From the NCBI RefSeq assembly GCF_041429775.1, contig NZ_CP163421.1:1302001-1366000 (forward strand): 64,000 nt of DNA, given 5' to 3'. Positions within the stretch are counted from its first letter, which is position 1. Each line of letters opens with the position of its first letter. Of the stretch, positions 24,083-55,774 are shown piece after piece. Under the pieces are notes generated by a model, which saw only the letters and a program-made list of their open reading frames with translations, was not told where the DNA came from and searched no databases. A program made the position numbers and the translations under genes. The stretch is from Glycocaulis abyssi. Its GTDB lineage: Bacteria > Pseudomonadota > Alphaproteobacteria > Caulobacterales > Maricaulaceae.

Positions 24083-24111
24083 CGCGACGCAACGCCCGAA
24101 GGCCAAAGCCA

Positions 24112-25973
<1,862 letters not shown>

Positions 25974-25977
<4 letters not shown>

Positions 25978-27470: not shown

Positions 27471-27577
27471 TCCTGCCCCGAGCGCGCCGCATGGTTGCGA
27501 GCGCGATATCTCCTGCCGGTGCGGTTTTGCGCATTGAGGGCTTCCGTGATCGGCCAAGAGCCGCTAGGCTGTCCTCA

Positions 27578-27593
27578 TGGTAACCGGTGTCAT
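27578..27593. promoter_or_regulatory. LacI-type operator between hydratase-like gene and pectate lyase
   Basis: The plus strand reads TGGTAACCGGTGTCAT, whose complement ATGACACCGGTTACCA matches the other sites. It is 108 bases from one start and 133 from the other in a divergent gap, so it could control both genes. I could not place clear -35/-10 boxes. Confidence 0.72.
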
Positions 27594-27725
27594 TGAGAGG
27601 CATACTTACGAACACCGGCGCATATGGCAAGCCCGATTTGCAAATCAGGTGATTTTGCGCCGGGCCGGAAAATAATGATGATGCTTCCAGTTCGGGATAA
27701 CGGGCGGGAGCGGGAGGAGACAAAA

Positions 27726-29351: not shown

Positions 29352-29360
29352 GGGAACGTC

Positions 29361-30365
29361 ATGGCAAGGCTTACGCGCCGCGCACTGACAGGCGGACTGA
29401 TGGCAGGCAGCGCGCTTGCCGCCGCCGGTTGCGGGGAAATTTCACGCCCCCTCTTTTCCTCGGACACTCATTCCAGCGACTACCCCACCGTAGAGGCTGT
29501 GCGAATGATGGGCCGGCTGCTGGAGGAACGTTCCGGCGGGCGGCTCTCCATCCGCATCTATTCAGGCGGCCAGCTGGGCTCGGAGCGCGACACGCTGGAA
29601 CTGACCGTGTTTGGCGGGCTGGACCTGAACCGGGTCAATCTGGCGCCGCTCAATGCCTTTGCTCCGGAGACGGTCATCCTGTCCCTGCCCTTCGTGTTTC
29701 AGTCCGAGGCCCATATGCGCGCCGCGCTGGATGGCGCGCCCGGTCAGGCCGTGCTGGATGCGCTCGAACCGCACGGGCTGATCGGGCTTTGCTTCTACGA
29801 TTCCGGGGCGCGCAGCTTTTACAATACCCGCCGCCCCATCCGCACGCCCGGCGACATGCGCGGGCTTAAGATACGTGTCCAGAACTCCGACCTCTATGTC
29901 TCGATGGTCGAGGCACTTGGCGCCAACGCAACGCCCATGGACCTGTCGGAAGTCTATCAGGGCCTGATGCAAGGCGTGATCGACGGGGCGGAGAACAACT
30001 GGCCGTCCTACGAGTTGACACGCCATTTCGAAACCGCGCCCTTCTACAGCCTGACCGGCCATGTCATGGCACCTGAAGTGCTGGTGATGAGCGCGCACCG
30101 CTGGCGCCAGCTCAGCGCCGATGACCGCGCGCTCGTCCAGGCCTGCGCGCGCGAATCCGTGCCCTTCATGCGCCAGCTGTGGGACGCGCGCGTGGCCGCC
30201 GCGCGCGAACGCATCACCGCCGCCGGTGTCGAGGTCAACGCGGTCGATGATGTCGGCGCGTTCGCCGATCTGATGCGCCCGGTGTGGGAGCGCTTTGTGC
30301 GTACTCCAGCCCAGCAACGCCTTCTCGACGATATCCGCAACATGGCCGGAGGGGCCGATGCTTGA
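29361..30365 (+). CDS. TRAP transporter substrate-binding protein (DctP)
   Basis: A 334-residue periplasmic binding protein. Its signal has both a twin-arginine look, 'LTRRALTGGLM', and a lipobox, 'LAAAGC', so it may be Tat-exported and lipid-anchored. Family marks are 'FGGLDLNRVNLAPLNAF', 'SLPFVFQSEAHMRAAL' and 'GLKIRVQNSDLYVSMVEALGA' (in part); the Arg here typically binds the substrate carboxylate. 'EVYQGLMQGVIDGAENNW' follows. Related DctP proteins bind uronates, and the context favours galacturonate or a small unsaturated oligomer. It is 9 bases after the lyase gene. Confidence 0.92.
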   Translation: MARLTRRALTGGLMAGSALAAAGCGEISRPLFSSDTHSSDYPTVEAVRMMGRLLEERSGGRLSIRIYSGGQLGSERDTLELTVFGGLDLNRVNLAPLNAFAPETVILSLPFVFQSEAHMRAALDGAPGQAVLDALEPHGLIGLCFYDSGARSFYNTRRPIRTPGDMRGLKIRVQNSDLYVSMVEALGANATPMDLSEVYQGLMQGVIDGAENNWPSYELTRHFETAPFYSLTGHVMAPEVLVMSAHRWRQLSADDRALVQACARESVPFMRQLWDARVAAARERITAAGVEVNAVDDVGAFADLMRPVWERFVRTPAQQRLLDDIRNMAGGADA

Positions 30366-30861
30366 CCGTTTCGCCACGATTACACGCTGGCTGTCCCGCC
30401 TGCTCATGTTCATCGGCGCCACCGGCATTGCCGTGATGACCGCGATCATCGGCTGGCAGGTCTTCGGCCGTTATGTGCTCAATGCCAGCCCTGCCTGGAC
30501 CGAGCAGGCCGCCCTGGTCCTGATGGTCTGGTTTGTCATGTTCGGCGCGGCGGCCGGCGTGCACGAGGGCTTTCACATCCGCATCGGCGCGTTTGTGGAA
30601 GCACTGCCCGTGCGCATCCGCACTGTCTGCCGGGCTTTCGCCCTGCTGATCATCGCCGCATGCGGCGTGGCTCTTGCAATCTGGGGCACACAGCTTGTGC
30701 GCGAGGTGTGGAGCCATGTCATTCCCACGCTCGGCATCTCGCGCGGCTTTGCCTACATGCCCCTGCCCGTCAGCGGCGGGCTGATCACGCTTTTTGCCAT
30801 TGAACGTCTCGCCGAGCTTGCTGCCGGGCGCGAACGCGGGCGCATGGAAGGACGTGTCTGA
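30358..30861 (+). CDS. TRAP transporter small membrane subunit (DctQ)
   Basis: A 167-residue protein with four hydrophobic helices (about residues 14-34, 46-66, 88-108, 130-150). 'IGWQVFGRYVLNASPAWTEQ' is the DctQ signature, followed by 'MFGAAAGVHEGFHIRI'. DctQ supports the large DctM permease in a sodium- or proton-coupled uptake system. Its ATG overlaps the end of dctP by 8 bases. Confidence 0.93.
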   Translation: MLDRFATITRWLSRLLMFIGATGIAVMTAIIGWQVFGRYVLNASPAWTEQAALVLMVWFVMFGAAAGVHEGFHIRIGAFVEALPVRIRTVCRAFALLIIAACGVALAIWGTQLVREVWSHVIPTLGISRGFAYMPLPVSGGLITLFAIERLAELAAGRERGRMEGRV

Positions 30862-32144
30862 TGGAACTCGCCATTCTTCTGGGCACCTTGCTGCTTCTTC
30901 TGGCCATCGGAGTGCCCGTCGCGTTTGCATTGCTGGGCGCGACACTGGTCGCCTTCCTCGTGCTCGACTTGCCGGCCGTCGTCGCCGTGCAGCGCATGGC
31001 ATCGGGCATGAGCGTGTTTTCGCTGATGGCGATACCCTTCTTCATCTTCGCCGGTGAACTGATGCACCGGGCCGGTATCGCCGCGCGCCTTGTACGCATC
31101 GCGGAAGCGGCCTTCGGGCGTTCACGCGGCGGGCTGGGCCAGGTCGATGTCGGCGCGTCCATGCTGTTTGGCGCAGTGTCGGGCTCGGCGGTTGCCAGCG
31201 TCTCGGCACTCGGCTCCACCCTGATGCCGATGATGAAGGAAAAGGGCTATGACACCGACTATGCGGTGAACGTCACCTCAACCTCGGCCGTGGTGGGCCT
31301 GCTCATCCCGCCCTCCCACAACATGATCATCTATGCGGCGGCAGCCGGTGTCGGCGTCAGTGTCGGCGAGCTATTCATCGGCGGTATCATTCCCGGCCTT
31401 CTGACCGGCGCCCTGCTAATGTTCGTGGCCTGGCTGGTTGCGGTGAAGCGCAACTATCCGCGCGGCGAGTTTCCCGGCTGGCCGGCCTTCGTGGCCGCGT
31501 TTGCCGCCGCCCTGCCCGGCCTGATGACAGCCGTCATCATCGTAGGCGGCATTCTGGGCGGCTTCTTCACGGCCACCGAATCCTCCTCCATCGCCGTCAT
31601 CTACACGCTCACGGTCGCCGTTCTTGTCTATCGCTCGCTCAGCTTCAGGGCCTTCCTGGAGGCCACGCTGGCCGCCGCGCGCACGACCGCCATGGTACTC
31701 TTCATCATCGGCGCCGCTTCCGCGTTCGGATGGGTGCTGGCGATACTCGAAACGCCCTCCCAGCTGGCCGCCCTGATCCTGTCGGTCACCGACAACCCCA
31801 TCCTCATCCTGCTCATCATCAACCTCATCTTGTTGCTGCTGGGCACCTTCATGGACATGTCGCCGCTGATCGTGATCACGACCCCCATCTTCCTGCCCAT
31901 CGCGGTTGGGCTGGGTATTGATCCTGTGCATTTCGGGGTGATCATGATGCTCAATCTCGGCATCGGGCTGGTCACACCGCCCGTGGGCTCTGTATTGTTC
32001 GTTGGCGCGGCCGTCGGCGGCATGCGCATGGAGGAGACCGTGAAGACCATCTGGCCCTTCTACGGCGCACTGGTCGCCGCCCTGATGGCGATCACCTACC
32101 TGCCCTTCCTGACCATGGGCCTTGTCGAGCTGATGCGCGGCTAG
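30861..32144 (+). CDS. TRAP transporter large permease (DctM)
   Basis: A 427-residue permease with about twelve helices. Marks are 'LLAIGVPVAFALLGATL', 'AIPFFIFAGELMHRAGI', 'GAVSGSAVASVSALGSTLMP' and 'TSAVVGLLIPPSHNMIIYA', the conserved DctM core. 'GTFMDMSPLIVITTPIFLPI' and 'LNLGIGLVTPPVGSVLFVGA' complete it. The start overlaps the dctQ stop by one base (TGATG). Its stop overlaps the stop of the convergent mgsA gene in the tetramer CTAG. Confidence 0.95.
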   Translation: MELAILLGTLLLLLAIGVPVAFALLGATLVAFLVLDLPAVVAVQRMASGMSVFSLMAIPFFIFAGELMHRAGIAARLVRIAEAAFGRSRGGLGQVDVGASMLFGAVSGSAVASVSALGSTLMPMMKEKGYDTDYAVNVTSTSAVVGLLIPPSHNMIIYAAAAGVGVSVGELFIGGIIPGLLTGALLMFVAWLVAVKRNYPRGEFPGWPAFVAAFAAALPGLMTAVIIVGGILGGFFTATESSSIAVIYTLTVAVLVYRSLSFRAFLEATLAAARTTAMVLFIIGAASAFGWVLAILETPSQLAALILSVTDNPILILLIINLILLLLGTFMDMSPLIVITTPIFLPIAVGLGIDPVHFGVIMMLNLGIGLVTPPVGSVLFVGAAVGGMRMEETVKTIWPFYGALVAALMAITYLPFLTMGLVELMRG

Positions 32145-32515
32145 CCGCGGATGACCGCCTCGGCGCTGGCCCGGTTCAGGGCCAGCGGTATGTCGTACAG
32201 CACGGCCAGGCGCGTGAGCGCCTTCACATCCACATCGTGGGGCTGGGGGCTCATCGGATCGGTGAAAAAGACGAGCGCGTCCAGCCGGCCCTCGCAAATC
32301 ATCGCGCCAAGCTGCTGGTCACCGCCCAGCGGACCGCTTTTCAGCGCGTTTACCGCCAGCGCGGGATAGGCCTCCATAAGTCGCCGGCCGGTCGTGCCGG
32401 TAGCAAAGAGCGTCAGCGCCGACAGGCGTTCACGATGCGCCCCCACCCAGTCCAGCAGCACCGGCTTGCAGGCGTCATGGGCGACCAGCCCCAGCGTTGT
32501 GATCACGTTTGCCAC
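32141..32515 (-). CDS. mgsA: Methylglyoxal synthase
   Basis: A 124-residue lyase turning dihydroxyacetone phosphate into methylglyoxal and phosphate. Marks are 'LGLVAHDACKPVLLDWV', the phosphate loop 'FATGTTGRRLM', 'LKSGPLGGDQQLGAMI' with the catalytic Asp and 'PQPHDVDVKALTRLAV' with the active-site His. I take the GTG at 32515 because the longer frame runs into the terminator hairpin at 32531; the ribosome site is weak either way. The protein ends about 25 residues before the E. coli one, as in short family members. It is the sole plain glycolytic side-enzyme inside the pectin island. Confidence 0.9.
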   Translation of the reverse strand: MANVITTLGLVAHDACKPVLLDWVGAHRERLSALTLFATGTTGRRLMEAYPALAVNALKSGPLGGDQQLGAMICEGRLDALVFFTDPMSPQPHDVDVKALTRLAVLYDIPLALNRASAEAVIRG

Positions 32516-32520
32516 TCCAC

Positions 32521-32556
32521 ACAAAGAAAACCCCGGACCAGCGTACTGGTCCGGGG
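32521..32556 (-). terminator. Rho-independent terminator of the TonB receptor gene
   Basis: An 11-base-pair perfect stem, CCCCGGACCAG / CTGGTCCGGGG with loop CGTA, occupies 32531-32556. On the minus strand it is followed by TTTTCTTT, so it ends the receptor transcript 26 bases after its stop codon and should insulate mgsA. Confidence 0.88.
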
Positions 32557-32581
32557 TCAAAGGGGCTACTATCGGGAGAGA

Positions 32582-35317
32582 TCAGTAGCGATAGCGGACA
32601 CCGAACAGATATTCGCGGCCGGTATGATGGTAGACTGACACGCGGTTGGCGCTGTCCACATACTGGCTGTTGAACTCGTCGGTGAGATTGATCCCGTCAA
32701 AGGTCAGCGTCACGCGGTCGGTCAGGTTGTAGCGGATGGCCGCATCCACATTGAACGTGCGCTCCTTGCCTTCCTCGTCATTGCCGTTGCGGCCCGGGAA
32801 CTGGGTCAGATAGGGGTCACGCCCGTTGAAGGACACACGCGCGCTCAGGCGCTCGTCCTCGTAATAGAGCGTGGCGTTGTAGGAATTGCGCGACAGGCCC
32901 GTCAGCTGGTTCGAACCGGCCGCCCCGTAATTCACGTCGGAGTCCACCCAGGTGTAGTTCATCACTGCACCGAAACGGTCGAACGGCGCAGGCAGGAAGT
33001 TGAACGGGCGCACCCACTGGACTTCCACACCGCGGAGATCCCCGCCTTCCCCATTGATATTCCGGCTGACATCAACCAGCGGATCCAGATTCGCGGCAAG
33101 GTCACCGGCCAGCGGTGTGCCCGACGGCACGGCGCTCGCGGGAAGGCCGGTCTGGCTGAAGGGGATGGTGTCGGTCGCGCGGGCCACGAAGGATTCGATA
33201 TCCTTGTAGAACAGCGCCACCGCGAACAGGGACTCATCCTCGAAATACCATTCCGCGCTGAAATCGTAATTGTTGGCGCGGAACGGATCGAGACGCGGAT
33301 TGCCGTAATTCACGGTGTAGGCCGTACCCGAAACATTGCCGCCCGGCGTCAGCGCGCCCAGTGACGGGCGGGACATGACCTGGGCCGCACCGAAGCGCAG
33401 CACCATGTTGCTCGTCGGCTCAAGGGCGAGGTTGAAGCTGGGAAGCGTGTCTGTGTACTCGTTGTCCACCGTCACCTCGACGCCGGAGATGATACCGGTC
33501 GAGCTGGTCTCGGTGCGCACGACACGCACGCCGAAATCACCGCGCACCGGCATGCCGCCCCAATCGGTGCTGAAGGCCGCCTGCAGATAACCGCCCAGAT
33601 TGTCTTCCTCGACATTGCGGATATTGCCCGTCTGCGGCACCAGCGGACGCTGATAGAGGCCAACCATGTCAGCCACCACGCCGACATCGGGAATGGCCCA
33701 GCTCGTCACATTGCCAGAGGGCATGCCAAGCCCGTTGCCAAAGCCGGTTACCTGGGTGGCCATGGCCGCCGTCACCGGCATCCACTGGGCCGCCGGCAGC
33801 AGCAGGTCACGCCGGCCTTCCCAGCTGTCGAACTCATAGCTCTTCCAGTTCACCCCGCCGCGCAGCGTGAATATCTCGTTGAGGTCGAACTCCGCATTGA
33901 ACTGCGCCGTCGTGTAGGTGTTGTCGACATAGTTCGGACGGTCCCGATACTCGGTCAGCTGGTAATTGGTCGGGTCATTGACATCAAAGCCCCAGTCAAT
34001 GGCGGGGGTCCGGCTGTTCTGGCGGTAGTCGTAGGAGAACCCGTCTGAATCGAAGTTCGTGAACAGGATGGTCGACTGGACCGGGTTGGAGAAGTTCGAC
34101 TCCGAACGGCCGACGACACCATCCACGCGGAAGCGGCTGGTGAATTCGTGGGTCAGCGAGAGCGTGAACTGCGTGAACTCCGTGGTCAGCTCGTCATAGC
34201 GGTGCTCGGCGTAGATATCGTTATTGTCGAACACGCCGTAAATGAGATTGTTGTTGGCATCGATCTCATAGGCGGTAACGATCTGGGCGGGCTTACCCAC
34301 CAGTTCCGGGGTGGCGCTGCCACCGCGCGAAAAGGAGAAATTCTCCAGGAACTGCTCCGAGCGCGTAGCGTCAAACCGGGAATAGAGCGCATCAAGGCTG
34401 ATCTCGGTCACGCCACTGGGTCGAAATTGCACCGAGCCCGTCACGCCCAGCCGCTCCTGGTCGTGGACCAGCCGGCCATAGCGCGGGATACGCGGGTGGA
34501 ACGCATTATTGACCGCAGCTTCCTCCGCCGGCGTGACGCAGGCCGTGCATCCGCCAAAGCTGTTGGCGTTCTGCCAGCGCACCGTGGAATGACCTTCCTC
34601 AAGCTGGGCGCGGTCGGAATAGGCCAGCGAAAGCAGCCAGCCGAACGTGCCATCGGCATTCTGGTCCGAGATAAGGCCTGTCAGCCGCGGATTGAACTCC
34701 TCCGAGAGGTCGTTCCAGCCGACTTGCGCACCGGCAGCTACGGTAAAGCCGTCATAGTCGAACGGGCGCGCGGTGCGCAGATCGACCGTTGCGCCAAGCG
34801 AGCCTTCATCAACCGAAGCCGACTGGGTCTTGCGGATCACGACGGACTGAAACAGCTCAGAAGCGAAGGTGTTGAAGTCGAACGAACGCGAGCGATTGCC
34901 GCCGCCGGAGGAGTCCGTCCCGCCGGTCACGCTCAGCGCTTCCATGCCGTTGATCCGCACCCGCGAGAAATCCGGGCTGAGGCCACGCACAGTGATCTGC
35001 CGGCCCTCACCGGCATCACGGTCGATGGCAACACCCGGAAGACGCTGGATCGCCTCTGCCAGATTGAGATCAGGGAAGGCGGCAATGTCATCGGCCACGA
35101 TGGCATCAACAACGCCGGTCTCCTCCCGCTTTACCGCTGCTGCAGCCTGAAGGCCAGCGCGATAACCGGTCACGGTGATGGTTTCTGTCGGCTGACTGGC
35201 CGCCTCGGGCGCCTCCTGGGCCACAGCCGGTGCGGAGAACATGGCCGCAGCCAGACCGAGCACGGATGCGCTGGTCAGCAAGGAGCGCGCACGCGCCATT
35301 CCATTGGTCCTGGACAT
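32582..35317 (-). CDS. TonB-dependent receptor
   Basis: A 911-residue outer-membrane receptor. It has a signal peptide (about residues 1-33, 'APAVAQ'), a TonB box region 'TETITVTGYR', and a plug domain with 'ADDIAAFPDLNLAEAIQRLP' and 'GRQITVRGLSPDFSRVRING'. The C-terminal beta-barrel ends with an aromatic, 'YLFGVRYRY', as needed for assembly. It belongs to the large TIGR01782-like group typical of Caulobacter relatives, many of which import plant sugars. With two LacI-type operators upstream and kdu/uxa genes alongside, oligogalacturonides are the likely cargo. The ribosome site is GGGGAGGAAGAGG. Confidence 0.93.
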   Translation of the reverse strand: MSRTNGMARARSLLTSASVLGLAAAMFSAPAVAQEAPEAASQPTETITVTGYRAGLQAAAAVKREETGVVDAIVADDIAAFPDLNLAEAIQRLPGVAIDRDAGEGRQITVRGLSPDFSRVRINGMEALSVTGGTDSSGGGNRSRSFDFNTFASELFQSVVIRKTQSASVDEGSLGATVDLRTARPFDYDGFTVAAGAQVGWNDLSEEFNPRLTGLISDQNADGTFGWLLSLAYSDRAQLEEGHSTVRWQNANSFGGCTACVTPAEEAAVNNAFHPRIPRYGRLVHDQERLGVTGSVQFRPSGVTEISLDALYSRFDATRSEQFLENFSFSRGGSATPELVGKPAQIVTAYEIDANNNLIYGVFDNNDIYAEHRYDELTTEFTQFTLSLTHEFTSRFRVDGVVGRSESNFSNPVQSTILFTNFDSDGFSYDYRQNSRTPAIDWGFDVNDPTNYQLTEYRDRPNYVDNTYTTAQFNAEFDLNEIFTLRGGVNWKSYEFDSWEGRRDLLLPAAQWMPVTAAMATQVTGFGNGLGMPSGNVTSWAIPDVGVVADMVGLYQRPLVPQTGNIRNVEEDNLGGYLQAAFSTDWGGMPVRGDFGVRVVRTETSSTGIISGVEVTVDNEYTDTLPSFNLALEPTSNMVLRFGAAQVMSRPSLGALTPGGNVSGTAYTVNYGNPRLDPFRANNYDFSAEWYFEDESLFAVALFYKDIESFVARATDTIPFSQTGLPASAVPSGTPLAGDLAANLDPLVDVSRNINGEGGDLRGVEVQWVRPFNFLPAPFDRFGAVMNYTWVDSDVNYGAAGSNQLTGLSRNSYNATLYYEDERLSARVSFNGRDPYLTQFPGRNGNDEEGKERTFNVDAAIRYNLTDRVTLTFDGINLTDEFNSQYVDSANRVSVYHHTGREYLFGVRYRY

Positions 35318-35388
35318 TCCTCTTCCTCCCCTTTGGCAGCTGTTTGCAGCTTGCCTTGATTTTGGTTTCGAACCCTAGCGGTCTGCGT

Positions 35389-35404
35389 ATGACACCGGTA
35401 GCAA
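35389..35404. promoter_or_regulatory. LacI-type operator, proximal site of the TonB receptor gene
   Basis: ATGACACCGGTAGCAA, 72 bases before the receptor start. It lies downstream of the promoter proposed at 35474-35502, so it could act as a roadblock or as the second anchor of a loop with the distal site; the two centres are 98 bases apart. Confidence 0.72.
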
Positions 35405-35473
35405 TTTTGCGGACACGCATTGCCGCTTCACATGCTTCCCGTTGTCAGCGCGTTACGCGTCAGAATCCTGCAA

Positions 35474-35502
35474 ACTATGACTGAAAATGACACCGGTATC
35501 AA
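35474..35502 (-). promoter_or_regulatory. Promoter and distal LacI-type operator of the TonB receptor gene
   Basis: On the minus strand, TTGATA (35502-35497) and CATAGT (35479-35474) are spaced by 17 bases and fit -35 and -10 boxes. The operator ATGACACCGGTATCAA (35487-35502) covers the -35 box, so repression by occlusion is expected. Confidence 0.65.
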
Positions 35503-35547
35503 TAATGCGAGCCAATTTTCTTTGATCCGCCGATTTATCAATTTGTA

Positions 35548-36306
35548 TCAACGGGCTAGCCAGCCGCCATCGACCGCGAGCACCGTGCCATGGACATAAT
35601 CGGCCGCAGAGGAAGACAGAAAAACGGCGGCTCCGCCGAGGTCTTCAGGAGCGCCCCAGCGGCCCGCGGGAATGCGCGCCAGTATCTCTGAATTGCGCGT
35701 CTCGTCCGCACGCAACGCCTCGGTATTATTGGTCGCGAAATAGCCTGGCGCGATGGCGTTCACATTGATGCCCTTGCCCGCCCATTCGTTGGCGAGCAAT
35801 TTCGTGAGGCCCGCCACACCACTCTTTGATGCCGTGTAGGAAGCGACGCGTATTCCGCCCTGAAAGGACAGCATGGAGGCAATATTGATGATCTTGCCGC
35901 CCCTGCCCGCTCCAACCATGTGACGGGCAGCCGCCTGGGACAGGAAGAACGCCGCCTTCAGGTTCACATTCATCACCGAGTCCCAGTCGTCCTCGGTGAA
36001 GTCGAGCGCGTCATTGCGCCTGATGATGCCGGCATTGTTGATGAGAATGTCGACACCGCCCAGCGCCGCGACGGCATCTGCCACCACACCGCCGGCAACA
36101 GACGTGTCGCCAAGGTCGGCCCTGATCTCTGCAAAGCGCCGCCCGGCCGCCTCCACCAGCTGGCCAGTCTCAGCAGCGCTGGAGCGCCCGGCGGCAGCAA
36201 TGTCGGCTCCGGCGTGCGCCAGCGCCACGGCCATCGCCTGGCCAAGACCGGTATTGGCTCCGGTGACAAGTGCGGTCTTTCCCGCCAGTGAGAACGATGC
36301 GGCCAT
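35548..36306 (-). CDS. kduD: 2-dehydro-3-deoxy-D-gluconate 5-dehydrogenase
   Basis: A 252-residue short-chain dehydrogenase. 'TGANTGLGQAMAVALAHAGA' (cofactor loop), 'NNAGIIRR', and catalytic 'YTASK' are present, and 'FSLAGKTALVTGANTGLG' with 'YFATNNTEALRAD' closely follows KduD. The enzyme reduces 2,5-diketo-3-deoxygluconate (DKII) to 2-keto-3-deoxygluconate. It comes 11 bases after kduI and is last in the uxaC-kduI-kduD unit. Confidence 0.92.
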   Translation of the reverse strand: MAASFSLAGKTALVTGANTGLGQAMAVALAHAGADIAAAGRSSAAETGQLVEAAGRRFAEIRADLGDTSVAGGVVADAVAALGGVDILINNAGIIRRNDALDFTEDDWDSVMNVNLKAAFFLSQAAARHMVGAGRGGKIINIASMLSFQGGIRVASYTASKSGVAGLTKLLANEWAGKGINVNAIAPGYFATNNTEALRADETRNSEILARIPAGRWGAPEDLGGAAVFLSSSAADYVHGTVLAVDGGWLAR

Positions 36307-36317
36307 GCGAAAGCCCC

Positions 36318-37166
36318 TTATTTGAGCTGGCAGATGTCGAGGACGTTCATATCGGTATAGTCGAGATTCTCGCCCGCCATCGCCCAGATGAAGATGTAGT
36401 TGGAAACACCCGAACCCATGTGGATCGACCAGGGCGGGGAGATCACCGCCTCCTTGTCGGACACCACGATGTGGCGGGCATTGTCGGCCTCGCCCATGAA
36501 GTGGAAGACGCGGCCCTTCTCGCCCAGCCCGAAATAGAAATAGATTTCAGAACGCCGGTCATGCAGGTGCGGCGGCATGGTGTTCCACACGCTGCCGGGC
36601 TTCAGAATAGTCATCCCCATCAGCAGCTGGGCTGACTGGCACACGCCCGGCACCACGAACTGGTAGATCGTGCGCTGATTGCTCTCCTCCATCGTACCAC
36701 GCTCCAGCGGGGTGGCCTCGGCGATGGAGATTTTCTTCACCTCATACGCCGCATGAGCCGGACAGGAAACAAGGTAGAACTGGGCAGGCTTGTCCGCCGA
36801 TGCGCTCTCGAACACCACCTCTTTCACACCCATCGGGATGTAGAGCGCATCCTTCTCGGCCAGATCATGGCGTTTGCCGTCGACCTTAATGGCGCCGGGC
36901 CCCTCGCCCACATTGACCGCCGCCATCTCGCGGCGTTCGAGGAAGGGATGGCCCTTGGCCGATTCCGGTTCGGTCTGGACAGGCAGCGCAAGCGGCTTTC
37001 CAGCCGGCGCCGCACCGCCGATGACAAAGCGTTCATTGTGCGAGTAGACCAGAGTGACCTTGCCGGACTCGAACAATCCGTCAACGAGATAGCGATCGCG
37101 CAATGCGTCATTGCTTGCCCCATCCATCATGTCGGGATGGGTGGCTTGCAGCGTTTTGCTGAACAT
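36318..37166 (-). CDS. kduI: 5-dehydro-4-deoxy-D-glucuronate isomerase
   Basis: A 282-residue cupin enzyme turning DKI, formed from unsaturated galacturonate, into DKII. The ATG at 37166 has GGAGGAA before it; the longer frame enters uxaC. Marks: '[20 protein letters not shown]' (in part), '[17 protein letters not shown]', the zinc-ligand segment '[18 protein letters not shown]' (HxH and Glu) and '[11 protein letters not shown]' (last His). Length matches E. coli KduI. The gene lies between uxaC and kduD. Confidence 0.95.
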
Positions 37167-37191
37167 GGGGATTCCTCCAGATTTGCAGGGG

Positions 37192-38646
37192 TCAGGCCGG
37201 CCGCCGGGCCGGTGCCATCGTCTCGTTTGCATCAATTCGGTAAGCAGATCGGGCAAGCCCGCAGGCAAGGTCGGCGGCAAGCTCGGCTGCCTCGTCAATC
37301 TCCAGCCTGTGCTCGGCCACCAGGCGGGCCAGGAAGCCGCAATCCACACGCCGCGCCACATCATGGCGGGCCGGAATGGACAGGAAAGCGCGCGTGTTGT
37401 CGTTGAACCCGACCGTGTTGTAGAACCCGGCAGTTTCGGTTGTGTGTTCGCGGAAACGGCGCATGCCTTCCGGGCTGTCATGGAACCACCAGGCCGGTCC
37501 CAGCTTCAGCACAGGATAATGGCCGGCCAGCGGCGCCAGCTCGCGCGCGTAGGTGCTTTCATCGAGCGTGAAAACGATGATGCCAAGCTCACGCTCATTG
37601 CCGAACCGGTCGAGCAGCGGTTTCAGCCCCCCCACATAATCGGTCCGGGTGGGAATATCGGCACCCTTGTCGCGGCCATGACTGGCGAACAGGGCGGCAT
37701 TGTGATTGCGGAACGAACCCGGATGGATCTGCATGACCAGCCCGTCTTCAAGGCTCATCCGCGCCATTTCGGTCAGCATCTGCGCCCTGAACAGCTCGGC
37801 CTCGCGCGCATCCGCACCGCCTTTCACCACCTTTCCAAACAGCGCCGCCGCATCTGCCGGCGAGAGGTCTGCCGTGGCGGCTGTCGGATGCCCGTGGTCG
37901 GTGGATGTGGCCCCCGCAGCGATGAAGTCCTCGCGGCGCACCCGGTGCGCCTCCAGATAGCCCTTCCAGCTGAAGACATCCTCGTTCGTGATCTCGCCGA
38001 ACGCCTCCAGCGCGTCGGCAAATCCGGGATACTCAGGGTCAATTACGGGATCTGGACGATAGGCCGTGACAACCCGGCCACCCCAGCCGGAGGACGCAAT
38101 CGCGTGATGATGGTCGAGAGAGTCGACCGGCGATTCCGTAGTCGCGAGAAATTCGATGCCGAACCGGTCAAACAGGGCCCGCGGCCGGAACGCGTCGGTC
38201 TTCAGCGCTGCATCGATGACATCGTAATAATGATCGGCCGTCCGGGCGCTCAGGCGCACATCAATGCCGAACACCTCCACGAACACGTGGTTGAGCCACA
38301 TTGCCGACGGTGTGCCCCGGAAGAGGTGAAAATGGGCGGCAAATGTCCGCCATGCCTGCCTGGGATCAGTATCGGGAGGGCCGGCCCGCGACGGCACGCC
38401 GAGCGCCTCTAGCGGCACACCCTGGCTGTAGAGCATGCGGTACAGATAATGGTCGGGCGCCAGCAGTAGCTGCGAAGGATTGCCGAACGGCTCATTGTCG
38501 GAAAACCAGGACGGATCCGTGTGGCCGTGCGGGCTTATGATCGGCAGATCACACACGGCGCCATACAGCTCGCGCGCAATCGCCCGCAGCGCCGGGTCAG
38601 CGGGTAACAGCCGGTCAGGGTGTAGCGATAGCGGCCGGACGGCCAT
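37192..38646 (-). CDS. uxaC: Uronate isomerase
   Basis: A 484-residue amidohydrolase-fold isomerase converting D-galacturonate to D-tagaturonate (and D-glucuronate to D-fructuronate). Marks are '[18 protein letters not shown]' (HxH), '[12 protein letters not shown]', '[15 protein letters not shown]' (in part), '[13 protein letters not shown]' and '[17 protein letters not shown]'. The start is preceded by GGGGAGGAAAG. It is the first gene of a minus-strand unit with kduI and kduD, and a LacI-type operator sits 49 bases before its ATG. Confidence 0.95.
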
Positions 38647-38694
38647 GGCTTTCCTCCCCGGTCTCGCATTCTCGTGCCGGTTTCTCCATATCTT

Positions 38695-38710
38695 TGGTAA
38701 CCGGTGTCAT
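38695..38710. promoter_or_regulatory. LacI-type operator upstream of uxaC
   Basis: The plus strand reads TGGTAACCGGTGTCAT; the coding-strand form is ATGACACCGGTTACCA. On the minus strand TTGAAA lies just upstream and could be a -35 box, which would put the operator in the spacer. It separates the regulator gene from the uxaC unit. Confidence 0.75.
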
Positions 38711-38752
38711 AAAATATTTCAAGGTTCGCAGCGCGCACCGTCTACGGCATTA

Positions 38753-39832
38753 TCAGCGTGGCCTGGCGGTGGATTCCCTTACTGCCAGCCCCGGCCGGAC
38801 TTCCGGATGCCGCGCGCTGGTGTCGCTCTCGGCGTTCGCCAGCACGATCAGCTTTTCAGCCGCGAACCGCCCCATGTCGCGGATTGGCAGGCGCACGGAA
38901 GTCAGAGGCGGCCACAGGCGTGCCGCCATCGGACTGTCATCATAGCCGATGACCGACAGGTCGCCGGGTATGGAAACGCCAGCATCGCGCGCGGCGGTAT
39001 AGACACCGGCTGCCATCTCGTCATTGCCGGTGAAAATGGCGGTTGGAGGGACATCCATCGCGAGAAGCTTGCGCGCGCAGGCAACCCCGGAATCGTATGT
39101 ATACGCCCCTTCCACCACATAGCGCTCTTCAAGTTCCAGCCCCCGCTCGGCCAGCCCTTCGGCAAACCCGCGGCGGCGCTCGTGAGACGAGCGGAAGCTC
39201 GGCAGGCCGCTGATGAACGCCACGCGGCGGTGCCCCAGATCGGCAAGGTGCCTGGCGGCTTCCGCCGCGCCAGCGGCATCATGAGTGACAATCATGCGCT
39301 CGGCATCATCCAGTGATACCGAGGCAACCCGCACATAAGGGCAGTCGAGATCGCGCAGGATCGCCACCAGGTCATCATCTTCCGACACAGAAGGTGTCAG
39401 CACCACGCCAAACAGCTTCAACTGCTCCACAAAAGCCTGAACCTGATCGAGGAAGCCCGGACTGGCCCGGTTACAGGGATGAACTACCAGCTCCAGTCCT
39501 GAATCGCGCACCGCATCGAGAATGCCCTGCTGGACATTGACGACATATTGCGGGTTCGGATTGTCATAGATCATGCCGATCAGGAACGAGCGGCGGAAGG
39601 CCAGCCCGCGCGCCTGGGGGTCAGGCCGGTAGCCCAGCTCCTTGATGATCGCATTGACCTTGTCACGGGTTTCGACCTTCACGAAGGGCGAACGGTTGAT
39701 GACCCGGCTCACAGTCTTTTTCGATACACCGGCCAGGCGCGCGATATCATTGATCGTGGCGCGCTTGCGCGCTGAGGGTGCGCCAAAGGCATTATCGGAA
39801 CCGGGTTCGGAACGCGGGCGCCTGCTGGTCAT
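38753..39832 (-). CDS. LacI-family transcriptional regulator of the pectin island
   Basis: A 359-residue regulator. After a 24-residue basic leader comes the helix-turn-helix 'ATINDIARLAGVSKKTVSRV' with hinge 'GYRPDPQARGLA', then a periplasmic-binding-like effector domain: 'IGMIYDNPNPQYVVNVQQGI', 'VVLTPSVSEDDDL', 'FISGLPSFRSSHERRRGF' and 'AIFTGNDEMAAGVY'. It lies at the centre of the island, transcribed away from uxaA. Six palindromic sites with a central CCGG, typical of this family, surround island genes and are its likely operators. The effector would plausibly be 2-keto-3-deoxygluconate or KDPG, but nothing in the sequence decides this. Confidence 0.92.
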   Translation of the reverse strand: MTSRRPRSEPGSDNAFGAPSARKRATINDIARLAGVSKKTVSRVINRSPFVKVETRDKVNAIIKELGYRPDPQARGLAFRRSFLIGMIYDNPNPQYVVNVQQGILDAVRDSGLELVVHPCNRASPGFLDQVQAFVEQLKLFGVVLTPSVSEDDDLVAILRDLDCPYVRVASVSLDDAERMIVTHDAAGAAEAARHLADLGHRRVAFISGLPSFRSSHERRRGFAEGLAERGLELEERYVVEGAYTYDSGVACARKLLAMDVPPTAIFTGNDEMAAGVYTAARDAGVSIPGDLSVIGYDDSPMAARLWPPLTSVRLPIRDMGRFAAEKLIVLANAESDTSARHPEVRPGLAVRESTARPR

Positions 39833-39948
39833 CGGAAAATCCTGACGAATCTGGACGGGATCGTCCCCCTACGGCATAGCACGGACCGCGAGCTTTCTGC
39901 CAAACCCGCATCGTGCACCGCCCGCTGCATCGGCCGGCGGACGAGAGC

Positions 39949-39978
39949 TTGACCCATCATGACACCGGTTTCCATACT
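39949..39978 (+). promoter_or_regulatory. uxaA promoter with LacI-type operator in its spacer
   Basis: TTGACC (39949-39954) and CATACT (39973-39978) are spaced by 18 bases. The operator ATGACACCGGTTTCCA (39959-39974) fills the spacer, so binding would exclude RNA polymerase. The uxaA start lies 24 bases downstream. The same site lies 127 bases from the divergent regulator start and may also autoregulate it. Confidence 0.72.
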
Positions 39979-40001
39979 GGGGCTGCTGAAGGGGCGATCG
40001 A

Positions 40002-41516
40002 ATGAACCGCACGGACACCATGACCGGGATGGACGCGTTGCGCGTCAATACCGCAGACAGCGTTGCCGTCGCCTTGCGCGACCTGTCTCCCGGAGAGAAA
40101 GTCCGCCTCGATGACAAGGTTTTGGTGCCGTCCTCGGCAATTGCCCGCGGGCACAAGATGGCGCTCTGCCCCGTGCGCGAGGGCGCACCGGTGCTGCGCT
40201 ATGGCTGGCCTATCGGACTGGCCAGCAAGGACATTGCGCCGGGCGATCACGTTCACACCCATAACCTGACCACCGCCCTGCAACCCGGCGGCGCCCTCAT
40301 CTACACCGCCGATACGAACATACACGCTCCGGGTTCGCGGCCGCTCGACCGGACATTTGCGGGATACCGCAGGCGGGGCGGCGCTGTTGGAACACGTAAC
40401 GAGATATGGATCATCGCAACGGTTGGATGCGTCGCACAGACGGCACGCCGGATCGCGGGCAGAGCGGCGGCCCGGCACGGCGACGGCCTTGATGGCATTC
40501 ACGCCATTACACACCCGTTCGGATGCTCCCAGCTTGGCGGAGATCTTGCTGACACGCGCGCCATACTCGCCGGCCTGGCCTCCCATCCCAATGCAGGCGG
40601 CGTGCTGATCGTCGGTCTGGGGTGCGAGTCCAATCAGATCGAGGCACTGCTCGCCGCAGCGCCGGGGCTCGACCCGTCCCGGGTGCGCATCTTGCGCGCG
40701 CAAAGCGCCGCGGACGAGCTGGAGGAAGGCGTGGCACTCGCCGGCGAGCTGGCAGAGATCGCCAGGCACGACAGACGCTCGCCCTGCCCGGTCAGTGATC
40801 TGGTGATCGGTGTGAAATGCGGCGGGTCAGACGGGTTTTCCGGTCTTACCGCGAACCCGCTGGCCGGACGCATGACCGATATGGTCACCGGCGCTGGCGG
40901 GACCAGCATCATCACCGAGATCCCCGAGATATTTGGCGCAGAGCACCTTCTGATGAACCGCGCGGCCGATGAAGGCGTGTTCGCCGCGGGCGCGCGGCTG
41001 GTGGAAGGGTTCAAGGCCTACTTCACCGATAATGGCCAGCCCGTTCATGAAAACCCGTCACCGGGCAATATCGCTGGCGGCATCACCACGCTGGAGGAAA
41101 AATCCCTCGGCGCGGTCCAGAAGGCCGGGCAGGCGGCACTGACCGATGTCATCGCCTATGGTCGGCGTGCAACCCGCCCGGGCCTCACACTATTGGAGGC
41201 GCCCGGCAATGATGCGGTGTCGTCAACGGCGCTGGCCTGCGCCGGTGCGCAGATCATCCTGTTCACGACCGGCCGGGGCACACCGCTGGGTTTCCCGGTC
41301 CCGACTGTAAAGATCGCATCTACTTCCAGCCTGGCGGAGCGAAAGGCGCACTGGATCGACTTTGACGCCGGACCCCTCCTGACCGGCGAGAAGATGGAGA
41401 TCGTGGAGGCCCGGCTGTTCGATCTCGTTCTGGCGGCCGCGTCTGGCCAGCCCACCCGCAATGAGCATAATGACGAGCGCGAGATCGCCATCTGGAAGCG
41501 GGGCGTCACGCTGTGA
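40002..41516 (+). CDS. uxaA: Altronate dehydratase
   Basis: A 504-residue enzyme dehydrating D-altronate to 2-keto-3-deoxygluconate. The N-terminal SAF-like domain (about residues 1-105) has 'ALRDLSPGEKVRLDDKVLV' and 'IAPGDHVHTHN'. The main domain follows: 'FAGYRRRGGAVGTRNEIWII' , 'TVGCVAQTARRIA', 'THPFGCSQLGGDL' and 'VIGVKCGGSDGFSGLTANP', with conserved cysteines that probably bind iron. Both domains are fused as in E. coli UxaA. AAGGGG precedes the ATG. Its stop overlaps the next gene by 4 bases. Confidence 0.95.
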   Translation: MNRTDTMTGMDALRVNTADSVAVALRDLSPGEKVRLDDKVLVPSSAIARGHKMALCPVREGAPVLRYGWPIGLASKDIAPGDHVHTHNLTTALQPGGALIYTADTNIHAPGSRPLDRTFAGYRRRGGAVGTRNEIWIIATVGCVAQTARRIAGRAAARHGDGLDGIHAITHPFGCSQLGGDLADTRAILAGLASHPNAGGVLIVGLGCESNQIEALLAAAPGLDPSRVRILRAQSAADELEEGVALAGELAEIARHDRRSPCPVSDLVIGVKCGGSDGFSGLTANPLAGRMTDMVTGAGGTSIITEIPEIFGAEHLLMNRAADEGVFAAGARLVEGFKAYFTDNGQPVHENPSPGNIAGGITTLEEKSLGAVQKAGQAALTDVIAYGRRATRPGLTLLEAPGNDAVSSTALACAGAQIILFTTGRGTPLGFPVPTVKIASTSSLAERKAHWIDFDAGPLLTGEKMEIVEARLFDLVLAAASGQPTRNEHNDEREIAIWKRGVTL

Positions 41517-42960
41517 GCAGGCCGCGGGGAAATATCATGCTGCACGCCCTGCCGGCCCATGTGGCGCGCCCTGCCTATGACAGGACACAGCTTCAGCCCG
41601 GCATTGTGCACATCGGACCGGGCGCGTTCCATCGCGCGCACCAAGCCGCCTTCATCGATACCCTGCTGCACGATGATCCGCGCTGGGCGATCACGGCGAT
41701 TGCCCTGCGCAGCCGGGACACGACCGATACGTTACGCGCGCAAGACGGGCTGTTCACCCTGAAAACGCTGGGGCCAGCTAGCTGGACCCGCGTGATAGGC
41801 GCGATCCGTGATGCCTTCAGCGCGCAGGACGATCCGTCCGGTACGCTCACCGCTCTTGGCGCGCCAGCGACACGCCTGATCACCCTGACCATCACCGAAA
41901 AGGGATATTGCCTCGACGGGAACGGCCAGCTTGACCTTAGCCATCCCGACATCGTTCACGATATCGCGCGGCCGGACGCCCCGCGCAGCGCAATCGGCTG
42001 GCTGGTGGCCGGGCTGGCCCGGCGCAAGGCCGCCGGAACGCCGCCGCCTGTCGTCATGAGCTGCGACAACCTGACCGATAACGGCAGCCGGCTGCGCGAA
42101 GCCGTCGTCCGGCTGGCCCGGCAGTCCGACACCGGGCTTGCCGGCTGGATCGAGCGTCACACCCTCTTCCCACGGACCATGGTGGATTCCATCACACCGG
42201 CAAGCGATCCGGCTTTCCTCGACGCGCTGGAGAGCGAGCTGGGCACGCGCGACGACGCCGCCGTCTGCCGCGAGGTGTTCACATCCTGGGTCATCGAAAA
42301 TCTGGATTGCGAACCCGTCGCCGCGCTGGGCCGGGCAGGCGCCGTCCTGACCAGTGATGTCCGCGGGCATGCCCTTGCCAAGCTGCGCGTGCTGAACGGG
42401 GCACACTCCGCGCTTGCCTGGATGGGACTGGCCCTTGGCTATCAGCGGGTAAGCGAGGCAATTGCAGATGACTGGCTGGGCGCCAGCATTGCAGAGATGA
42501 TCGGCCAGGAAATCCTCCCCGGCCTGGCGCCTGTTCAGGGGCTTGACCCGGACGCTTACGCGCAAGGTGTGCTGGCGCGCTTTGCCAATCCCGCCATCAG
42601 CCACAAGCTGTCGCAGATTGCCTGGGACAGCTCGCAGAAACTGCCTGTGCGCCTGCTGGGCACCGTTGCTGACAACCTTCAGGCCGGGCGGCCGGTTGTG
42701 CACCTTGCCCGGGCAGCGGCAGCCTGGATGCGCTTTGTGGTGCGGGCCGCAAGGGAGGGTTGGGCTCTCACCGATCCCCTGCAGGAGACATTGCTGGTGG
42801 CCGGCGGGACTGCACCGGAGACCCCGCGGGCGACACTGCACGCTTTCTGGAGATGGAACAGGTCTTCCCGCCTGGCCTTGCGCGAAATCCGGACTTTCGC
42901 AGCGCACTGTCGCGCGGCTACGGTGACATCCTCAAGCTGGAGCGTGGGTTACGGCCCTGA
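41513..42960 (+). pseudogene. Tagaturonate/fructuronate reductase, frameshifted near 42845
   Basis: A mannitol-dehydrogenase-family reductase: 'GIVHIGPGAFHRAHQAAF' (NAD site), 'EKGYCLDGNG', 'MSCDNLTDNG', 'PRTMVDSITPASDP' and the catalytic 'KLRVLNGAHSALAWMG'. Sense reading is lost at about residue 445. One frame back, the expected C-terminus 'LEMEQVFPPGLARNPDFRSA' continues to a TGA at 42958. Adding one base near 42847 (TTCTGG to TTCCTGG) restores a 482-residue protein of normal length. As given, the frame instead runs into kdgK. Family members act as UxuB or UxaB; with only uxaA present, tagaturonate to altronate is the likely step. It may be an intact gene with a sequence error. Confidence 0.82.
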
Positions 42961-42982
42961 TCCGCGTATATGGAGTATGCAA

Positions 42983-43996
42983 ATGAGCCGTTACCTCAAC
43001 GCTGCGGCGTTCGGCGAAGTGATGTTGCGCCTGAGCGCACCAGGGCGCGAGGCATTATTGCATTCACACCGACTCGAAACCTGGTTCGGCGGCGCAGAAG
43101 CCAATGTTGCTGCCGGCCTTGCCGCGCTGGGACACCGCGCGCGTATCATTACCGCGCTGCCGGAAAACGCTATCGGGGATGCGTGCACCGGGGAGCTTCG
43201 CCGCTCTGGCCTGGACACCTCGCACATTACCCGCACCGCCGGGCGGATGGGACTCTACTTTCATACCAGCGGCGCGATGCAACGTCCCGCCGAGATCATC
43301 TATGACCGCGCCGGATCTGCCTTCAGCCAGATGCCGCCGGGCGCGTGGGACTGGAAAGCCGCGCTGGACGGGGTGGACTGGCTGCATCTTTCGGGCATCA
43401 CCCCCGCCCTCGGCGCCGGGCCGGCACAGGCCGCGCTCGACGCCGCGAGAACGGCGCGCGAGCTGGGTGCCAGCGTGTCCTTCGACGTCAATTACCGGCC
43501 CATGCTCTGGGGCGGACGCGAAAAAGAGGCAAGCAGCATTCTCGCCGCCCTGGCCACCCACGTGACCGTACTGTTTGCCAGTGCCGGTGACCTCGCCCGC
43601 ATCCTGCCGCTGGACCAGACCGGCGAGCCGGAAGCCGATTTTGACAACGCGGCTGCGGCCGCCTTCGCCCGGTTTGACGGCCTTCAGCATGTGGCCACCA
43701 CCTTCCGTCAGTCGCGCGGCACGCTTGACCAGACCCTTCATGCCCGGCTCGCCAGCCGGAGCGGCACGGCGAGCGCCGGACCGGAAAGCCTCGCCGGTAT
43801 TGTAGAGCGGATTGGTGGCGGCGATGCCTTCGCTGCAGGGCTGATTGACGGGCTCGCACATGGGCTGGACCCGCAAACGGCCCTTGCAGACGCGCTCACA
43901 GCCATGGCGGTGAAGCATTCCATGCCCGGCGACATGTGCACTGTACGCCGAAGCGACATCGCTGCCTGGCGCGAAGGGCGTGACCTGAAGCGCTAG
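42983..43996 (+). CDS. kdgK: 2-keto-3-deoxygluconate kinase
   Basis: A 337-residue PfkB-family sugar kinase making KDPG from 2-keto-3-deoxygluconate. It starts at ATG 42983 with TGGAG 8 bases upstream. Marks: 'FGEVMLRLSAPGRE', 'FGGAEANVAAGLAALGH', 'RMGLYFHTSGAMQRPAEIIYDR' (in part), 'VSFDVNYRPMLWGG' and the catalytic 'IGGGDAFAAGLIDGL'. The residues in 'DVNYRPMLW' are typical of KdgK. The given sequence joins it in frame to the upstream reductase only because of a probable one-base deletion there, so I annotate it as its own gene. Confidence 0.9.
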   Translation: MSRYLNAAAFGEVMLRLSAPGREALLHSHRLETWFGGAEANVAAGLAALGHRARIITALPENAIGDACTGELRRSGLDTSHITRTAGRMGLYFHTSGAMQRPAEIIYDRAGSAFSQMPPGAWDWKAALDGVDWLHLSGITPALGAGPAQAALDAARTARELGASVSFDVNYRPMLWGGREKEASSILAALATHVTVLFASAGDLARILPLDQTGEPEADFDNAAAAAFARFDGLQHVATTFRQSRGTLDQTLHARLASRSGTASAGPESLAGIVERIGGGDAFAAGLIDGLAHGLDPQTALADALTAMAVKHSMPGDMCTVRRSDIAAWREGRDLKR

Positions 43997-53477: not shown

Positions 53478-55575
53478 CTACTCCACGGCCCGCATTTCAG
53501 GCACGCCCGTAAAGGGCCGGATACCGAATTCGGGATAGATCTCGCTCGGGAAATAGACCCGGCCGTCGGCAACAACCATTGAGATCGTCTTGATGTCCCG
53601 CAGGTCCTGCGTGGGATCCCCTGGCACCAGGAAGAAATCAGCCAGATAGCCCGGCTCGATCCGGCCCAGCTCGCCGTCTACACCGAGATATTCGGCCATG
53701 CCATGGCTGGCCCAGCCGAGGATTTCCGCAGGCTCCATGCCGATCTGCTGATAGAGCTCCAGCTCGCGGTGATAGGCGAATGAGCCGCCAAGATCGGTAC
53801 CCGGCACCATCGCGATACCGCGCTCGCGCATGATCTGCAGCATCTGGCGTATCTGCTCGAATGCGCCGCGATAGGCCGCATCCTCTTCCTCGCTATTGAT
53901 CGCCGACATGGCCGAGCGGGCACCGCGCTGCACGGCCACCGGCATGTGATCGACATAGTCCGCCGCACCGGCGAACACCTCGCCATTGCGCGACAGCAAG
54001 AGCTGCTCGTGAATGGCAAAGGTGGGATCGATGGCAACGCCGCGCTCAACCATGGCGTCGATGGTGGCCTGAACGTTTGGACTGTCGAGGTCCAGGACAG
54101 GAAGGCGCTGCAACGCGGTCAGGCGCAGGAGCGTGCGCGTATCCTCGTCAGAACTCCAGCACCCAGCCCAGCATGAGCTGGTTGATATGCACGATCTCGT
54201 CATACCCGGCTTCGATCATCGCATCGGCATTGGTGAACGCGGGGATATGACCGGTGACGCGAAGCCCGCGCTCGCGCGCGGCGGCGATGACAGCTGGAAT
54301 CCATTCGGGACGCATGGAGTTGTAGATCTTGATCTGGTGGAACCCGCCGCGGTCGGCATAGTCATGCACCGCCTGAACGGCCTCCTCCTCGCTTTCCGCC
54401 ACCACACCGTTATTGGAATTGAAGGGGCTGCGCCCTTCGATGAAGGCGCTGCGGTAAAGGCGGGGTCCGGCTACGCGCCCAGCCTCGATATTGTCGACAA
54501 GCTGGTCGAGGACCGCGTTATTATTGCCCATGTCACGGGCGCTGGTAATGCCTGCAGCGATGTTCAGGAAGGCGCTGGCCTCCCCCATATGGGCGTGCAT
54601 CTCGAACAGGCCCGGCAATAGCGAGCCCCCGCCGCCGTCAATCTCCACCTCACCGGCGCGTGAAGGCACCTCCAGCGGATCGATTGCAGCGATGCGATTG
54701 CCCTCGACGACGACCGAAACCGGCTCTCCGAGCGCCTCGGCGAGTGGATCAAAGACGCGCACATTGCGCACCCTGACCGGCCCGTCGAACTCATGGGCGA
54801 CGCGCGACTGAATCGCCTCGAACCGGCTGGCACCGTATTCGGCCGCCAGCGCGCGAAGCCGCTCATCCTCGCCTTCAAAGCCTTCAGCCAGCACAGCGAA
54901 GGAGGGCGAGATGACCCCGAAAAACGCCTCGCCATCCATCAGGAAATAGGTCGGGTTCAGACCGAGACCGGTGAGTGCCCAGCTGGTGATTTCGCGCGTG
55001 TCAGATCCATTGGAGACGGTCAGACGCTCAATCTCTTCGATGCGCACCTCACCGCCCGGAATGGCAGCAAGCACATTGCCGTCGGCGGCCATCAGGGCGC
55101 GGGCGGTGATCGCGAGGCTGTAGGGGCTGGAGTTCTGCGGCGCGTATATGGCGCGGCCGGTCACATCCATCCCGGTCTCGCCGGTCGTATCGCGCCAGAA
55201 GGCGCGGCCATCCTCCAGATGGAAAAGCTCGTCGACGGCATTTCCGAACGTGGTGGCACCTTCGATGGACCAGTGCACCGGCAGCCCATGCCCGTCGAGT
55301 ATCACGCTCTCGTTGAAAGTGGGGCCCCGCCCGTTATTGCGGAACTCGTAAAAGATTGCGTAGCCATTTTCCTGCGGCGTCACCTGAACGGCGCCGATGG
55401 GCGTACCGCCAGTGAGCACGGTGAAGCTCGCCGCCTCATGCTCCACAGGGCCGGCCCATTGCGGTGCCTGCCCGGTTGCGCCAGCTGTTTGCGCCGGTCT
55501 GCCCACCGGCGGCTCGCATGCCGCCAGCCCCGTCACCAGCACTGCAATACCCGCCAGCCGCAATAGCGTCGCCAT
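53478..55575 (-). pseudogene. Amidohydrolase lipoprotein, frameshifted near 54156
   Basis: Two overlapping frames together make one amidohydrolase. The first half starts at ATG 55575 (GGGGAGG upstream), has a lipobox 'GLAAC', an extra N-terminal domain of about 250 residues, then 'RVFDPLAEALGEPVSVVVEG' and the metal-binding 'LLPGLFEMHAHMGEAS', with later His in 'VTGHIPAF' and 'EIVHINQLMLG'. It stops early after 'GWVLEF'. The second half continues with 'SSDEDTRTLLRLTALQRL', 'VPGTDLGGSF' (metal Asp) and 'GRIEPGYLADFFLVPGDP'. Removing one G near 54156 gives one 698-residue frame. The substrate is unknown; relatives include imidazolonepropionase-like and dipeptidase-like enzymes. Confidence 0.85.
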
Positions 55576-55774
55576 GGCGCGCCTCCCCTTGTCTGTTTTC
55601 ACACTCTTGCGCGCACGCTAGCACGTGCCCCGTCAACGGGAAGGCTGTCTGGCATCGGGGCTGTATCAGGCTCCCGCCTCTGCGCGGGGTGAAAAAGCCT
55701 CTGCCTTTTCGGCGCCAAGGGTAGTAGCAAGGCCCTGACCGGAACGTCAGAACAATGCGAGGAGCACGAGTGTC

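Follow-up and report, generated by a model that had tools for sequence, protein, structure and literature searches.

An apparent UxaB-KdgK fusion in Glycocaulis abyssi most probably reflects a one-base frameshift in uxaB

The window analyzed here is a stretch of 64,000 nucleotides from the chromosome of Glycocaulis abyssi LMG 27140 (G000:C1:1302001-1366000, where G000:C1 is the chromosome). It contains a pectin and uronate cluster in which the genes uxaA, uxaB and kdgK follow each other on the forward strand (Table 1). A single open reading frame of 827 codons extends across uxaB and kdgK, from a GTG at position 41513, which overlaps the stop codon of uxaA, to position 43996. An 827-codon frame of this kind, with kdgK starting in the frame of a broken reductase gene, had been described in the initial annotation, and it was recovered here at 41513-43996, the ATG of kdgK at 42983 being in frame with 41513 (1470 bases, i.e., 490 codons).

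Table 1. Features of the uxaA-uxaB-kdgK run, in window coordinates
Feature	Position	Strand	Description
uxaA-like altronate/galactarate dehydratase	40002..41516	+	directly 5' of uxaB; PF20629, PF04295, PF08666
uxaB, in-frame part	41513..42805	+	residues 1-431; tagaturonate/fructuronate-type uronate reductase, mannitol dehydrogenase family
Frameshift site	42804..42806	+	a base present in both G. albus and G. alkaliphilus is missing
uxaB C-terminal tail, out of frame	42805..42960	+	residues 432-482 of the intact gene; TGA at 42958-42960
Linker, spurious coding	42806..42982	+	59 out-of-frame codons between the uxaB frame and kdgK
Ribosome-binding-like GGAG	42972..42975	+	7 bases 5' of the kdgK ATG; same in G. 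albus
kdgK	42983..43996	+	PfkB-family 2-keto-3-deoxygluconate kinase with its own ATG; PF00294

When searched against Pfam, the 827-codon frame matched two mannitol dehydrogenase domains, PF01232 (residues 30-263) and PF08125 (residues 283-442), and the PfkB kinase family (residues 498-802). Both matches in the reductase part scored above the cut-off, i.e., the Rossmann domain and the C-terminal domain are both present, as in the UxaB/UxuB-type members of the mannitol dehydrogenase family, with which the window also shares the gene order uxaA-uxaB-kdgK. Among the NCBIfam models, fructuronate reductase was the best match to the window UxaB and tagaturonate reductase scored lower (both below cut-off); the neighboring gene encodes an altronate/galactarate-type dehydratase. 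By sequence profile as well as by Foldseek E-value, the top match was PDB entry 4IM7, the fructuronate reductase YdfI, to which UxaB of G. albus shows 36% identity; entry 7RK4 yielded a higher TM-score. At an E-value of 0.001, the Mannitol_dh_C family matched nothing else in the G. abyssi genome.

KdgK is complete, PF00294 covering residues 8-312 of 337 (profile positions 5-290 of 302), and the protein is identical in the window and in G. albus. Compared with other KdgK proteins of the PfkB family (PF00294), it is full-length and has its own start; the protein itself is no different, and the peculiarity is just the upstream frame that enters it. The NCBIfam models of 2-keto-3-deoxygluconate (KDG) kinases match below their cut-offs, and the name KdgK is based on the gene context. 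A second KDG kinase, 76% identical, is encoded in G. abyssi at G000:C1:772238-773278. A second Entner-Doudoroff run (zwf-pgl-edd-eda, named by eye) with adjoining kdgK, located at G000:C1:772235-778055, corresponds to window positions 21916-26603 and 42995-43995 with DNA identities of 80% and 73%, respectively.

Regarding the remainder of the cluster around uxaB, KduD, KduI and UxaC were identified above the NCBIfam cut-offs, and a LacI-type regulator is present. A pectate-lyase-like protein matched NCBIfam PelZ below cut-off as well as PDB entry 9buj, and yielded no match in the Pfam search. The pectin and uronate cluster (window positions 26658-43995) and its G. alkaliphilus counterpart are collinear over 17.5 kb, with an identity of 78.8%.

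The genes uxaB and kdgK share one frame because the window is one base short, at about 42805, in comparison to its relatives. The genome of G. albus CGMCC 1.12766 (G002) aligns to window positions 9270-63993 (54.7 kb) with 99.03% identity, and within uxaB this alignment contains a single gap, of one base, at 42805. A DNA alignment of the three species G. abyssi, G. albus and G. alkaliphilus has its gap at the same place (about 42805), no gap is seen at the site between G. alkaliphilus and G. albus, and the protein matches change frame between residues 431 and 432. The one-base frameshift in uxaB proposed in the initial annotation is thus confirmed, but not its placement at 42845, since the alignment and the protein matches locate it about 40 bases further upstream. 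The other details given for the reductase were accurate: its C-terminus continues out of frame to a stop codon ending at 42960, and restoring one base results in 482 residues, which is the length of the intact UxaB in both G. albus and G. alkaliphilus. Residues 1-431 of UxaB are 99% identical to those of G. albus, the identity of the tail is 100%, and the 184 bases past the site (42807-42990) are found without a single change in G. albus. An extra base in G. albus, instead of a loss in the window, was rejected, as G. albus and G. alkaliphilus are equally long at this position and the G. albus tail aligns with 25 other homologues (some of them cut short).

The length of the frame does not in itself speak for a fusion, because open wrong frames are not rare here and because in G. 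albus, with its intact uxaB, the 161 codons that precede kdgK are already open in the kdgK frame. After training on uxaB, a first-order Markov simulation gave a probability of 0.33 for a wrong-frame run of 59 codons without a stop codon. Among 35 hand-listed genes of the window, a run of this length was open in 4 genes in the frame reached by the loss of one base and in 11 genes in the other wrong frame.

Orthologues with the same 827-residue fusion were looked for in several genome collections. In the five relatives found to have kdgK directly behind uxaB (G. albus, G. alkaliphilus, the genus genomes G003 and G004, and G240 from the search of the order genomes), the two genes are separate in every case; in G240, uxaB (491 aa) and kdgK (336 aa) overlap by 4 bases and are in different frames. 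Likewise, none of the best 80 of the 589 GTDB loci encoding a relative is fused, kdgK being directly downstream in this set only in G. albus and one locus (L119) being cut at its contig end. Matches at 1e-30 were obtained in 154 of the 299 order genomes, and the only match spanning both modules, among the matches listed, was that of the window itself. Seven of the listed reductase matches are situated in open frames of 722-933 codons, in which the reductase module alone was matched; in G007, uxaB and kdgK share a strand but are separated by a further frame. A point against a spurious fusion might be that the kdgK frames of G. albus and G004 match the window frame from residues 431 and 437 on, respectively, and hence inside the linker; however, what is matched there is the corresponding out-of-frame reading of uxaB, which is itself intact and in another frame in both genomes. 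No match was obtained in the plasmid collection, and no description of a tagaturonate reductase-kdgK fusion was found in a narrow search of the literature, as far as its accessible text goes.

A real bifunctional UxaB-KdgK enzyme is rejected because it is shared by none of the relatives examined, and we regard it as very unlikely. In its favor, all 827 codons form one open frame and the two enzymes are near each other in one pathway, but the linker is an out-of-frame reading of the conserved tail with mostly low model scores, and kdgK retains its own start and a ribosome-binding-like site. KdgK does resemble (below cut-off) the kinase half of the KHG/KDPG aldolase-sugar kinase fusions (NCBIfam NF041633), in which a related sugar kinase is also C-terminal to a fused pathway enzyme; in contrast to the join in the window, which is an out-of-frame reading in one genome, these fusions have an aldolase as partner and constitute a curated family. 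Programmed ribosomal frameshifting could restore UxaB, given that the frames are intact on both sides of the site. However, G. albus and G. alkaliphilus read uxaB in one frame and need no shift, the RNA structure at the site is no better than that of shuffled sequences (z -0.09), and a canonical slippery heptamer was not seen by eye; this explanation has next to no probability. We therefore consider the UxaB-KdgK fusion spurious, as proposed in the initial annotation and supported by the separate genes of the close relatives, and assign a probability of about 95% to an ordinary uxaA-uxaB-kdgK run with a one-base frameshift at about 42805.

The part of UxaB that is out of frame is predicted to be well structured in the intact protein. 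The model of G. albus UxaB has a mean pLDDT of 90.8, the block means over residues 431-480 being 94-98, and residues 432-482 comprise helices at 438-446, 454-457 and 460-477. Of the columns that are invariant across 26 aligned homologues (61 in all), two, L446 and F452, are in the tail. The Pfam Mannitol_dh_C profile (190 positions) is matched up to position 186 in G. albus vs. position 163 in the window, in which the complete C-terminal domain plus tail is not in frame; compared with other UxaB/UxuB-type reductases, the window copy is without the last 51 residues in frame. In a model of the fusion, the block-mean pLDDT was 82 and 68 up to residue 450 and 41-49 from there to residue 490. As kinases made up only 4 of the 30 aligned relatives, the prediction of the kinase half was poor, and the model is thus uninformative with respect to the kinase.

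If translation or a gene caller left the UxaB frame past residue 431, it would read 59 meaningless codons over the uxaB stop and would then enter kdgK, which by chance is in the frame reached. KdgK would presumably still be produced from its own start (GGAG, 7 bases, ATG), whereas a UxaB without the three C-terminal helices would probably be unstable or inactive, and is presumably lost or weak. It appears improbable that the shift is real and gives rise to a single reductase-kinase polypeptide, a newly born fusion with a working kinase and a dead or altered reductase; the strain would in that case have just lost the catabolism of saturated galacturonate and would depend on KduI/KduD. Unsaturated products of pectate lyases pass through KduI, KduD and KdgK and thereby bypass UxaB, so that a loss of UxaB would block only the saturated-galacturonate branch. 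KduI of E. coli was reported also to facilitate hexuronate conversion under osmotic stress (accessible part of PMC3578941). Regarding growth of G. abyssi on galacturonate, the word beginnings 'galacturon' and 'pectin' do not occur in the main text of the literature checked in a narrow search.

The spurious fusion may be due either to a recent mutation of the strain or to a base lost in a nanopore-only assembly, and the odds between the two are about even. The genome of G. abyssi LMG 27140 was assembled from Oxford Nanopore R10.4.1 data (mean depth 245x, basecalling v4.2.0) using Trycycler and Medaka, no short reads are mentioned, and 22 pseudogenes were counted vs. 6 in G. alkaliphilus (PMC11559359). 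We see a chance just short of even that the missing base is an error of this assembly and that in the organism UxaB (482 residues) is intact and KdgK separate from it. This would agree with the nanopore-only, Medaka-polished data, the number of pseudogenes and the 184 bases identical to G. albus past the site, although the depth of 245x is an argument against it. The basecalling version also predates the methylation-aware models, which began with v4.3, but low indel rates were observed for R10.4.1-only assemblies (both according to the accessible part of PMC11170131). As in the gene-fragmenting errors of long-read assemblies (Kastor; accessible part of PMC12007338), a single-base indel breaks one gene in an otherwise intact run in a nanopore-only assembly; unlike in such errors, the shift in the window joins two frames without truncation, and an error is only a candidate here.

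A second one-base frameshift is located at 54152 in an amidohydrolase-family gene (window positions 53478-55602, reverse strand), the frame of which has 707 codons in G. albus and is split into 484 + 241 codons in G. abyssi. This site is a GANTC in G. albus, and the presence of a CcrM-type methyltransferase in the G. abyssi genome together with this motif hints at modified-base miscalls, which would favor an assembly error. However, methylation-induced nanopore errors have been described as base ambiguities, not indels (accessible part of PMC11610573), and there is no long homopolymer at 42805 or 54152. Systematic miscalling at a methylated motif is also weakened by the site counts in the aligned block: of the G. 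albus GANTC sites (n=161), 125 are the same, 35 are substituted and one has an indel, and of the GGCCGGCC sites (n=14), 11 are the same, 2 are substituted and one, the uxaB site, has an indel; no other site of either motif is affected by an indel in the block around the window. In an 85%-identical block, indels were found at 12 of 309 GANTC sites, vs. 10 of 272 in the reverse direction.

The number of broken genes does not favor an assembly error either. Judged by frame lengths, three genes are broken in G. abyssi in the block (uxaB, the amidohydrolase gene and, at G000 1410602, a frame of 404 codons), and at most three in G. albus (recA and the frames at 1380773 and 1396097), i.e., there is no clear excess in G. 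abyssi. The recA gene has 362 codons in G. abyssi (G000:C1:1389170-1390258), whereas the G. albus record (G002:C6) is 56 bases short and has 230 codons. Near G000:C1 1410602, where the identity to G. albus is only about 84%, the frame that comprises 404 codons in G. albus is interrupted in G. abyssi by a difference of 4 bases and has 221 codons there.

In a survey of split frames (matches of at least 12 residues and at least 55% identity, best match at least 60%), 8 and 9 events were counted in the block around the window, each among 117 matched ORFs, which gives no indication of a high error rate in G. abyssi; the survey is blind to which genome is broken, and both breaks in the window are counted in both directions, that in uxaB twice in one of them. 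The corresponding numbers for a 400-kb block were 17 and 15 events per 267 and 263 matched ORFs, most splits in the 85%-identical block being located in weakly matching N-terminal ends.

A genuine, recent and strain-specific frameshift mutation in uxaB of G. abyssi LMG 27140, arisen in nature or in laboratory passage, would agree with the high depth and the non-homopolymer context; the same data that count for an assembly error count against it, and we put its chance at slightly less than even. The differences from G. albus in the 5' part of uxaB are nonsynonymous in 6 cases and synonymous in 9 (ratio 0.24 vs. 0.13 over all 37 segments), and a weak test gave no clear sign of decay of uxaB since the break (Fisher p 0.25 vs. 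the 36 other segments). The lack of clear decay fits a break too recent for decay, and taken together the 184 identical bases and the lack of clear decay fit either a very recent mutation or an error. The genome collections compared contain one genome per species, and G. abyssi is thus represented by one genome.

The frameshift in uxaB matters mainly for annotation, as automatic pipelines could list a bifunctional UxaB-KdgK enzyme or a pseudogene and mispredict the galacturonate phenotype of G. abyssi. If the shift is true, the strain would be a natural uxaB mutant with an otherwise complete-looking pectin cluster.

The window is part of a tract of about 80-110 kb (G000:C1 about 1289000-1398000) in which the identity to G. 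albus is about 99% for the most part and which carries the pectin cluster as well as housekeeping genes (rpsD, icd, named by eye). Judging from these identities, the tract looks like the result of a recent exchange between G. abyssi and G. albus; it is of more interest than the frameshift in uxaB, which is an ordinary finding. Relative to the start of the window, the identity per kb to G. albus is 94-100% (mostly about 99%) from about -13 kb to +68 kb, and 88-99.8% from there to about +95 kb. The edges of the tract are sharp, with the identity dropping to about 90% on one side and to 82% on the other. A 400-kb sample from elsewhere in the genome showed an average identity of 85.1% over 335 kb aligned, with no 5-kb bin above 91.5%.
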